A DNA stretch of 64,000 bases from Aphrocallistes beatrix (Eukaryota > Porifera > Hexactinellida > Sceptrulophora > Aphrocallistidae), in the NCBI GenBank assembly GCA_963281255.1, contig OY725503.1, forward strand, positions 3,968,001-4,032,000, given 5' to 3'. Made by a program: the position numbers and the translations under genes. Of the stretch, positions 3,146 through 27,903 are shown one piece after another; within the stretch, counting starts at the first letter, position 1, and each line of letters opens with the position of its first letter. The notes under the pieces were generated by a model, which was given only the letters and a program-made list of their open reading frames with translations, was not told where the DNA came from and ran no database searches.

Positions 3146-11255
<8,110 letters not shown>

Positions 11256-24800: not shown

Positions 24801-25402
24801 TTGGACCAACATATTTAGTGATGTGACTTCTCTCGACTATTGTTTTCCTCACTGACCTCTTCACTCTCTTCCGATCGCTAGAATCCTCACTCTCTATAGA
24901 GTGAAGCTTCTGAACACTCTTGCACACGGCGATAGAGATCTCAAGCTGTGAGAGAGCCAATAATTTGCCCAAAGACTAAAAAGATGAAAATATTTGAAAT
25001 ACAAATCCTATTAAATTGAATTTAAACACTTACCTGCACGAATTTTGCTGCATTCTGCATGTAATTCTTCTCATCGGAGGCTTTTTCCTTCAGAAAGGGG
25101 TAGGAGGACAAGGTTATTAGTTTCAAAAGCAACTCATGCATACTAGGAAATGAATCCAATCTCTCAAAACAGATAGGCAATAGTTGGGACAGTTCCCCTA
25201 ATTCGCTTAAGAGAAAACCCCCTTCATTCATCTCTATCACACGGCTCAGTGCATCCTCATCTCGCTCTGTCTTGTCATTGCTGTCAAGGTCTGCCAAAAG
25301 CTTCAAGGCATTGCTGACTATACTCATGCTGGAGAAGTTGGGTAGTAATACGTATAAGATTAATCTAAATTCGATAACCATTTCGTGTGTTCGTACCACC
25401 AT
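21845..25402 (-). CDS. CFAP69: Cilia- and flagella-associated protein 69
   Basis: Axonemal protein needed for sperm flagella and olfactory cilia in vertebrates; largely helical armadillo-like repeats. Nine exons: 25034..25402, 24853..24975, 24475..24738, 24103..24348, 23674..24043, 23337..23615, 22864..23256, 22383..22810, 21845..22219. They sum to 948 residues (human 941). Family-like segments include ILGVLVDLSDD with a downstream HLQAW; ANLGTHTSIAVMDVADNMRAK followed by IYSLCSRLDF; ERYMDLKIEEVW; RTSNYIALRDAKERQ; and NLSTTVFCGRNVKVES near the end. All junctions are GT-AG and phase-consistent. The start is the first in-frame ATG; shorter starts at nearby methionines are possible. I assigned the name by comparison with remembered human sequence. 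Confidence 0.87.
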
Positions 25403-25528: not shown

Positions 25529-26026
25529 ATGATAGATAGTTTTGTGGTCCAACTATTCCTCGTAGTAAGTTTGGCAGCTTATGTGGTGGGGCCTGTTCGT
25601 TTCCCTAACTACTCACGTCAAGTCGGATACCTTGTCGGGGACCTTGTAAAAGTGATTCGGCAATCTTTGAATACCTACAAAGGTGTATCTAAAGATAAAG
25701 ACATATCTAAAATGTCTTCAGAAATGAAGTCTGGACTTCAAGAAATTAAAAAGATACAGCAACAGTTCGATTTCGGTTTCAACTTGATTCGATCTCCCTC
25801 CCAAGCAATTAGGCTTGCAACGGAAAAAGAAGAAAAGCCCCAAGATATAACAAAACAAGAAGATGTTACAACAAAAACTCACGAACAAAACAAAGCTCCT
25901 GTGCCTCTGCCCCCAATAATGGGTGGTGCTAGATACGTGTCGAAAACCGCGTTTCTGATCAAACAATACAAAGATAATAACCCAGGAATAGAAGACGAAA
26001 GTAAGCATTTTAAGGATGAGAGATAA
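25529..26026 (+). CDS. TatB-like twin-arginine translocase component
   Basis: Single exon, 165 residues. Residues 1-26 align without a gap to the start of bacterial TatB: Met1, Asp3, a polar residue at 8, a hydrophobic helix, then Gly21-Pro22, Arg24 and Pro26 (VVGPVRFP here, VVLGPQRLP in E. coli TatB). An amphipathic stretch RQVGYLVGDLVKVIRQSL follows, as in TatA/TatB, and then a long charged, probably unstructured tail. Tat moves folded proteins such as the Rieske protein across bacterial, plastid and some mitochondrial membranes. A mitochondrial inner-membrane role is inferred. No separate targeting presequence is visible and no TatC gene is in the window. The match is short and made by eye; a chance single-pass protein is the alternative. 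Confidence 0.6.
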   Translation: MIDSFVVQLFLVVSLAAYVVGPVRFPNYSRQVGYLVGDLVKVIRQSLNTYKGVSKDKDISKMSSEMKSGLQEIKKIQQQFDFGFNLIRSPSQAIRLATEKEEKPQDITKQEDVTTKTHEQNKAPVPLPPIMGGARYVSKTAFLIKQYKDNNPGIEDESKHFKDER

Positions 26027-26457
26027 CATTAAAATAGTGCATTTCCTCATAATTCGATTTATGCTGATAGGAATAATATGTAACGCAAAATTCTTTCTAT
26101 ACTATTTTGTAGTGAATTTTGTGAATCGTATATGCATCACTTCGTAAAATGTGTTATGGCAGAGAACACCTGTACCTCGGTCTTCTCAGCCATAACTTGG
26201 TCAGCATTTTAACAGATTCAGTCAATAAAGCAGTCGAAATGATACTCTGCAAATACAAAAAATATATATACTATATAATTTACAAAAAGGAAGAGTATAG
26301 GTGTATAGAAGAATTGATATTAGTGCTTAGAAAAAAAGTTATTTTTTTATCAAATTGCTCCCTTTTCAGTATTATCAACTGTTGTTTTCAATTACAAATT
26401 CCTAACTACTATATGTACTGGATTTTGTTTTATAAATCACATCATTTTAAAGTCGCT
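26027..26457 (+). other. AT-rich spacer before EXPERA gene 1
   Basis: Contains an in-frame upstream extension of the next gene beginning with ATG at 26149, but its composition (Lys, Tyr and Ile from AT-rich codons) and its absence from the tandem paralogue argue that it is untranslated. Confidence 0.6.
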
Positions 26458-27045
26458 ATGGCAGACCTTCAATACAATCTAATCATACTGTTGCTACTGT
26501 TAGTTAGAGGCTTTCTCTTCGTTCTTTTATTTATCAAATGGTTCCCGGTCAATGTGTTCTTCCTGCAATTCCCTCGCTGGGTGAGCATGTGGCTACTATT
26601 TTCAAGTATTTCAGTATCTTTCGATACAGTATTCATACTAGACCGCCCTGAATCTTTCAACATTTCAATCTGGACAACTCACCATATCTACACGAAGATT
26701 GATAAGGCCTATGGCGATTTGGAAGACACGTTTGTATACGCGAAATCTCTATTGAATATTGTAGAAGTCATCGCAAATATTACAGCTCTATTCTACCTTG
26801 TTATCAAACTTCAATTCAAAAAAGCAGCACTCATAGCAATAGTCGCCTCCGCTATAGCATTTTCAAAAGCTGCATTATATCTGGTGATGGAGATCGTGAG
26901 TGGATTCAAAAACACAGCTCAAAATGATGCATTCACGTTCGCTACATTCTATATTGTACCGAACGCTACATGGGTAGTGGTGCCAGCCGTGGCGATGTAC
27001 CAGCTGGGCGCGGTACTGATCCGAGAAAAGCCAAAAGAGGAATGA
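26458..27045 (+). CDS. EXPERA-family membrane protein, copy 1
   Basis: 195 residues, one exon, with about five membrane helices. It resembles the EXPERA/emopamil-binding superfamily, closest in my recollection to a fungal subfamily: PRWVSMWLLFS, a D-x-x-FIL-x-RP-x-SF stretch, YTKIDKAYGDLED, a LLNIVEV helix, a SKAALYLVMEIVSGF segment and a final VPNATWVVVPAVAMYQLG helix. Superfamily members include sterol isomerases and sterol or lipid binders; the actual ligand cannot be read here. The start at 26458 was chosen because it aligns with the start of the neighbouring paralogue. It forms a tandem pair with the gene at 27328. The C-terminus has a charged KPKEE tail that could be cytosolic. Confidence 0.65.
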   Translation: MADLQYNLIILLLLLVRGFLFVLLFIKWFPVNVFFLQFPRWVSMWLLFSSISVSFDTVFILDRPESFNISIWTTHHIYTKIDKAYGDLEDTFVYAKSLLNIVEVIANITALFYLVIKLQFKKAALIAIVASAIAFSKAALYLVMEIVSGFKNTAQNDAFTFATFYIVPNATWVVVPAVAMYQLGAVLIREKPKEE

Positions 27046-27327: not shown

Positions 27328-27903
27328 ATGGATGGATTCATCTATACTATCCTCTTATTGGTGGGCTTATTGGGGACAGGGACTGTCTTAGCACTGCTGG
27401 TCGTCATGTTCCTACCACACAGCGTGTATTTCCCTCGTTGGGTCAGTCTATGGTTCGTCTTCAGTAACATAATTGTCTCGTACGATGCAGGATTCATTCT
27501 CTGTCGCCCTGCATCCTTCGACATGACATTGTGGTATCCATACCAGACATACATGAAGATAGATAAGAGCTACGCAGATTTAAAAGATGTGTACGTGCAC
27601 GCACAAAGCATAATGAATGTGGTAGAAATCTTTGTTAACGTCATAGCCATCTTATACCTAACGAGGCGCCATTTTAAGACAGCAGCGATTATAGCCATAA
27701 TAGCATCTACCATGACGGCTTCAAAGACAGTGCTGTATTTCCTAATGGAGATAGTGGATAACTTCAAATACACTCGACAGGATGATACTTTGACGTTTAT
27801 ATTTTTCTATATTTTCCCAAATGGTATATGGATAGTAGTGCCGGCTTTGGTAATATATTACCTTGGAGCTGTACTGGTAAGGGACAAGCCAGCTCAAGAC
27901 TGA
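27328..27903 (+). CDS. EXPERA-family membrane protein, copy 2
   Basis: 191 residues, one exon, a tandem paralogue of the gene 282 bp upstream. It shares PRWVS, the DAGFILCRPASFD stretch, the YxKIDKxYxDL motif, VVEIFVN, ASKTVLYFLMEIVDNF and the PNGIWIVVP final helix, with matching length and ends. This copy looks closer to the fungal-type consensus (SKTVLY, PNG-W), so copy 1 may be the more diverged one. About five membrane helices are expected. No sterol-isomerase activity should be assumed. Confidence 0.65.
   Translation: MDGFIYTILLLVGLLGTGTVLALLVVMFLPHSVYFPRWVSLWFVFSNIIVSYDAGFILCRPASFDMTLWYPYQTYMKIDKSYADLKDVYVHAQSIMNVVEIFVNVIAILYLTRRHFKTAAIIAIIASTMTASKTVLYFLMEIVDNFKYTRQDDTLTFIFFYIFPNGIWIVVPALVIYYLGAVLVRDKPAQD

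Follow-up and report, generated by a model that had tools for sequence, protein, structure and literature searches.

A nuclear TatB-like gene in a glass sponge and its possible part in mitochondrial export of the Rieske protein

The bacterial receptor for the signal peptide is built from TatB and TatC, and TatA is recruited to the system (PMC6251230). Nuclear genes for mitochondrial TatB have been described in plants, oomycetes, cryptists and jakobids (PMC6251230, PMC5855863, PMC7050145), and the survey in PMC6251230 reports TatC as encoded in the mitochondrial DNA (mtDNA) of every TatB-positive eukaryote. In plants, TatB and TatC, with no known TatA, appear to insert the Rieske protein, and knockout of TatB in Arabidopsis is lethal (PMC5855863). 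In yeast and mammals, the folded Rieske protein leaves the matrix via the AAA protein Bcs1, and the nearest plant relative of Bcs1 is an outer-membrane protein (PMC5855863). The jakobid Andalucia godoyi has a nuclear TatB and mtDNA-encoded TatA and TatC, and its description reports that no BCS1 was found (PMC7050145). Naegleria is described as TatC-only (PMC6251230) and has BCS1_N proteins (PMC7050145), and Chlamydomonas seems to be without both Tat and Bcs1 (PMC5855863). In the literature consulted, Tat in animals amounts to a solitary tatC in the mtDNA of oscarellid sponges. By the description in PMC6251230 Oscarella, a homoscleromorph, has a standard tatC, is TatC-only and has no reported TatB.

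The gene considered here lies at 25529..26026 on the plus strand of the window, which is the whole stretch of 64,000 nucleotides that was analysed (3,968,001-4,032,000 of contig C17, in a genome of 100.5 Mb and 28 contigs). In the open reading frame list of the window it starts with ATG and runs for 165 codons plus stop as a single exon without intron, encoding 165 amino acids. Head to head with it and 200 bp away, on the minus strand at 25044..25330, is an exon from near the N-terminus of CFAP69 (PF21049, E 6.6e-17, profile positions 5-92 of 719). This flank shows that the surroundings of the tatB-like gene are eukaryotic, and the gene is located in the nucleus beside CFAP69. Possible poly(A) signals, both by consensus match only, are AATAAA at 26224..26229 (+), approximately 200 bp 3' of the stop codon, and ATTAAA at 26028. 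GC content of the gene is 0.40, compared with 0.41, 0.42 and 0.43 in three adjoining coding stretches. Directly 3' of it are two EXPERA-domain (TMEM97/EBP-like) membrane protein genes in tandem, at 26467-27045 and 27328-27903; the first, on the plus strand, matches PF05241 with E 0.0012, below the cut-off. The GC3 of the tatB-like gene, 0.36, is below the 0.45 and 0.50 of these two genes. Neither tatA nor tatC was found beside the gene among the open reading frames of the window.

TatB is common in bacteria, being present by the NCBIfam model TIGR01410 in 145 of 150 genomes from the phylum of an Escherichia locus, and the gene could be a recent bacterial acquisition or a contaminant. However, contamination is unlikely because the gene sits in a nuclear contig of more than 4 Mb (C17 continues past 4.03 Mb), 200 bp from CFAP69. 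The initial annotation had asked for GC content and flanks to be compared on this point, and sponge-like GC, the adjoining CFAP69 and the size of the contig, together with a possible poly(A) signal, led us to reject contamination as the source. A recent bacterial origin of any kind is extremely improbable on the same evidence, as the best identity to bacterial TatB is just ~27% and no tatA or tatC adjoins the gene.

The identity of the protein was assessed with family profiles. A scan of 18,950 NCBIfam models gave TIGR01410 (tatB) as the sole family match (E 8.8e-4, 19.8 bits). This score is far under the curated cut-off of 56.5 bits, which serves to assign bacterial equivalogs and is passed by 106 of 150 bacterial genomes. 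Across the 100.5-Mb genome, the tatB-like frame was the only match to TIGR01410 with E ≤ 10, at a genome-wide E of 0.07. A Pfam scan of the protein, which had also been proposed, returned no family at E ≤ 10. This miss says little, because Pfam at E ≤ 0.001 also gave no family for E. coli TatB; for TatB from a relative of E. coli, the Pfam TatA/B/E model gave E 0.0024, under the cut-off. A profile was also built from 71 bacterial tatB-tatC loci (30, a further 40 from further collections, and L017), all 71 of which have both TatB and TatC matches; after iteration it held 77 rows. Among the 679 window frames of at least 40 codons, the tatB-like frame ranked first with 25.2 bits (E 8.5e-7), and the next scored 5.1 bits. 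Against the real frame at 25.4 bits, the maxima were 7.2 bits for 2000 full shuffles and 8.4 bits for 2000 segment-wise shuffles. Residues 1-60 alone scored 14.2 bits with a candidate-free model, compared with 9.4 bits for the best of 5000 shuffles, and the tail alone scored 7.8 bits. A second N-terminal model gave 19.9 bits, a value slightly favoured since the candidate was removed from it only after alignment. With a TatA profile of 40 sequences, residues 1-60 scored 2.9 bits and shuffles up to 12.5 bits; a TatA-type identity was rejected, as the score falls within the shuffle range. In a genome-wide search for TatA, PF02416 matched just a 21-residue stretch holding a stop (E 0.41). A sequence search of solved structures with the TatB-like protein gave seven chance-level matches (best E 0.22).

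The architecture of the protein resembles that of bacterial TatB. The initial annotation had described a gapless alignment over residues 1-26, and this holds even over residues 1-75, which align with a bacterial TatB (L142) Met1 on Met1 at 26.7% identity. A single N-terminal transmembrane helix is predicted at codons 5-21 (25541..25591, +), followed in the MAFFT alignment by the TatB hinge G-P-x-R-x-P, here GPVRFP, at codons 21-26 (25589..25606, +), an amphipathic helix at codons 27-50 (25607..25678, +) and a charged helical and disordered tail at codons 51-165 (25679..26023, +). The amphipathic helix and charged tail had been anticipated, and were recovered: residues 27-50 as a helix have a muH of 0.54, reached by 0.16% of 5000 shuffles, and the last 115 residues carry 21 K/R and 18 D/E. 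The particular residues singled out (Asp3, a polar residue at position 8, Gly21-Pro22, Arg24 and Pro26) are all present when the protein is aligned by MAFFT with 71 bacterial TatB. G21, P22 and P26 are each found in 71/71 of these sequences and are the sole three invariant columns within the first 48 positions; D3 is the same in 47/71 and R24 in 32/71, and V19 (64/71) and, within the amphipathic helix, R30 (60/71) and G33 (54/71) are also kept. The sponge protein differs from bacterial TatB in its score below the family cut-off, its nuclear and animal setting, and position 8 in the transmembrane helix, which is Gln in the sponge and Glu in 70/71 of the bacterial proteins. Glu8 sits at the TatB-TatC contact. 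It is described as essential, and as conserved in eukaryotic TatB (PMC6251230).

A chance resemblance, with the gene encoding an unrelated single-pass membrane protein, would suit a short protein that scores 19.8 bits with TIGR01410, under the cut-off, and has a genome-wide E of 0.07. It is nonetheless highly improbable, given the independent profile match in the window at E 8.5e-7, the absence of any score above 8.4 bits among 4000 shuffles, the margin of residues 1-60 over their own shuffles and the retention of all three invariant TatB columns. The protein is very probably a TatB homologue, judging from its sequence, and the proposal of a nuclear TatB-type gene in an animal is borne out by significant TatB profile scores and by the position of the gene in C17 beside CFAP69.

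The nature of the host was read from contig C28, which is the mtDNA (17,996 bp). In the 12 frames counted, TGA specifies Trp (61 TGA vs 1 TGG), and by eye AGA and AGG occur at serine positions of cox1. The gene block atp6-cox3-nad2-nad5-nad1-cob is present, plus atp9 (seven genes by Pfam, cox1 separately, others by eye). The cox3 gene (L004:8806-9571) has two apparent +1 frameshifts, at 9223 (codon 140) and 9263. In each case the codon is TGG and the +1 frame has GG; at codon 140 the frame breaks at TGG, and the +1 frame reads GGA. The mtDNA of A. vastus is described with the same code change, gene block and atp9, and with one cox3 +1 shift at amino acid 140, at UGG (PMC2267718). These matches in code, gene block, atp9 and cox3 shift identify the host as a glass sponge (Hexactinellida). 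The animal setting suggested at the outset stands, but the parallel with homoscleromorphs does not, as the mtDNA is of glass-sponge type.

A TatB acting in a mitochondrial translocase would be expected to have a TatC partner, and the initial annotation had pointed to the mtDNA as the place to look. Nothing recognisable as tatC was found in the genome, mtDNA included: the TatC model PF00902, which was positive in 11/14 control genomes, gave no candidate in nucleus or mtDNA, and neither did a bacterial TatC protein by tblastn. Between trnR and nad3 of the mtDNA lies a 193-codon gene for a membrane protein (L004:1807-2388), which is a weak candidate. Its codon usage scores 0.225 bits per codon in frame, compared with -1.40 and -0.86 for the two alternative frames, -0.213 for the best of 2000 shuffles and 0.245-0.709 for 12 known mitochondrial genes, and the frame codes for protein. 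The product is very hydrophobic, with lysine clusters at residues 60-66, 133-136 and 171-183 whose spacing, by eye, may suit a TatC with six helices, where they would fall in the inner loops and the tail. No family was found for it in Pfam (under three codes) or NCBIfam. Frames without a named family occur in other glass-sponge mtDNAs too (PMC2267718).

Direct comparisons of this product with TatC gave faint signals. The TatC HMM scored it at -4.3 bits, outside the top ten of 89 mitochondrial frames, and the best of 1000 plain shuffles reached 6.2 bits; hydropathy-preserving shuffles equalled its TatC score in 159 or 275 of 2000. With profile alignment under six settings, 57-86 of 1000 shuffles scored as high as the gene. 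Against a TatC alignment of 37 rows, hhalign matched residues 153-182 to the final 30 columns, with P 0.031 and a probability of 1.6%. On repetition, the E of 0.038 was the lowest among 13 mitochondrial proteins, and 4/200 hydropathy-preserving shuffles were as good; nad4 came next with E 0.076, yet had a slightly higher raw score (19.63 vs 19.41). MAFFT aligned PIIALLEIKLFFSK of the product with PMYCLFEIGVFFSR of TatC. By eye, and against the consensus of 37 TatC, the product is without the N-terminal motif HLxELRxRL, the PPD motif and most TatC-invariant residues. AlphaFold models built without and with TatC rows were of low confidence (pLDDT 64.6 and 68.6, pTM 0.30 and 0.35), and the TatC-aided model, having TatC rows in its alignment, is not independent evidence. 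A fold search with the single-sequence model gave two matches to an ion channel (E 9.4), taken as chance, and with the TatC-aided model no match. In viral contigs, no relatives of the TatB-like or 193-codon proteins were confirmed, and the TatC alignment gave one locus there. The 193-codon gene may thus be regarded, weakly, as a TatC candidate and not as a member of the family.

The faintness of this signal bears on who the partner of TatB might be. The TatB could be genuine and mitochondrial with a TatC other than the 193-codon gene, whether nuclear, split by introns, too diverged or absent from the assembly, and a six-frame search, which scores each exon separately, leaves some room for this. 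It is improbable, however, in view of the zero candidates from PF00902 and the TatC protein, and since mitochondrial TatC is mtDNA-encoded in every case found by PMC6251230. Alternatively, the protein could be a TatB relic without any TatC that now works by itself, perhaps as a chaperone or anchor at the inner membrane facing the matrix, with Rieske taking another route. The lack of a TatC from family or protein searches and the replacement of Glu8, at the TatB-TatC contact, by Gln are in keeping with such a relic, and Chlamydomonas, seemingly without Tat and Bcs1 (PMC5855863), offers a precedent. We consider it unlikely, though worth serious attention: the retention of G21, P22, P26, R30 and G33 is what a working hinge would predict, the mtDNA does contain a coding membrane-protein gene of a suitable kind, and all TatB-positive eukaryotes in PMC6251230 have an mtDNA TatC.

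The preferred reading, in which TatB works with a mitochondrial TatC, gains from searches for BCS1. Across the whole genome, the BCS1_N and AAA_lid_BCS1 models each gave 0 candidates. They match yeast Bcs1 at 6e-45 and 2.7e-19, which is the useful control here, as the 14 control genomes (none positive with the BCS1 models) contain no eukaryotes. The yeast Bcs1 protein had 25 matches in the genome, the best with 52.7 bits and 29% identity in the AAA part; another Bcs1 chain from the PDB scores 450 bits against the yeast protein. The best ten are 26-36% identical, and two short matches (44 and 47 residues) are 43 and 45% identical. Of the 25, 24 begin no earlier than residue 230 of yeast Bcs1; the exception (26% identical) begins at residue 112. 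The ten best presumably represent p97, proteasome ATPases, NSF, NVL and similar proteins. In the same genome, control searches recovered Rieske (E 5.5e-19; PF00355 E 2.4e-9) and genes of the OXA1 family (E 1.4e-24 and 7e-9). Subject to the exon-by-exon scoring of the BCS1 searches and to a possible gap in the assembly, a yeast-type BCS1 may be taken as lost from this sponge. The Bcs1 translocase of yeast and mammals has the same proposed job, moving folded Rieske across the inner membrane, but is a protein unrelated to TatB.

The Rieske protein of the sponge is encoded in one unbroken frame of 319 amino acids (L006:1114-2073, minus strand), with a long N-terminal region preceding the sequence SRKAFTYL. 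This RR-like motif stands before a helix, and such motifs also occur in Tat-negative eukaryotes (PMC6251230). According to the same source, the RR-like motif does not track the presence of Tat, and Rieske as a mitochondrial Tat cargo is not demonstrated (PMC6251230).

Taken together, these data suggest the following scheme. The nuclear gene product would be a mitochondrial TatB that is imported, after which its N-terminal helix would lie in the inner membrane with the amphipathic helix and charged tail in the matrix. Its partner would be a highly derived, mtDNA-encoded TatC, for which the 193-codon gene is the candidate, and the two may move the Rieske protein of complex III, folded and with its Fe-S cluster in place, out of the matrix to the intermembrane side. 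BCS1, which does this job in yeast and mammals, would have been lost. That a TatBC-type Rieske exporter replaces BCS1 in the mitochondria of this animal is a reading to which we lean slightly. For glass sponges in general, insertion of folded Rieske by a nuclear TatB and a strongly diverged mtDNA TatC, with BCS1 lost, appears evenly poised. Several features count against the exporter, namely Gln8 for Glu8, a TIGR01410 score under the cut-off, no recognised TatC and no TatA found. The working TatBC translocase foreseen by the initial annotation is upheld by profile scores in its TatB part; as to TatC, neither Pfam nor tblastn recognised one, and the weak 193-codon candidate remains. We infer such a translocase, with good motivation, rather than report it as a shown fact. 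The inference is strengthened by BCS1 not being found, although the absence of BCS1 does not prove Tat, since Chlamydomonas seems to be without both (PMC5855863).

Judged by published descriptions, the sponge shares with plants, oomycetes, cryptists and jakobids a nuclear TatB, and among these no yeast-type BCS1 was found in Andalucia and plants have TatBC instead (PMC6251230, PMC5855863, PMC7050145); in those lineages the mtDNA tatC is recognisable, whereas no TatC is recognisable in the sponge. The glass sponge fits the pattern of TatB present and BCS1 not found that is reported for Andalucia. With Oscarella it shares being a sponge that keeps a Tat subunit in the mitochondrial system (PMC6251230).

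No report of TatB in a sponge or of Tat in a glass sponge was found by title or opening of the abstract in the open-access literature, a search that covers neither subscription papers nor preprints. If true, this would be the first TatB of an animal and the first animal Tat system beyond TatC. A TatB in a glass sponge where searches find no BCS1 would demonstrate that BCS1 is dispensable to an animal. It would also extend the long-standing question of the mitochondrial Tat cargo to an animal, for which Rieske is the obvious answer, and would suggest an identity for the family-less reading frames of glass-sponge mtDNA.
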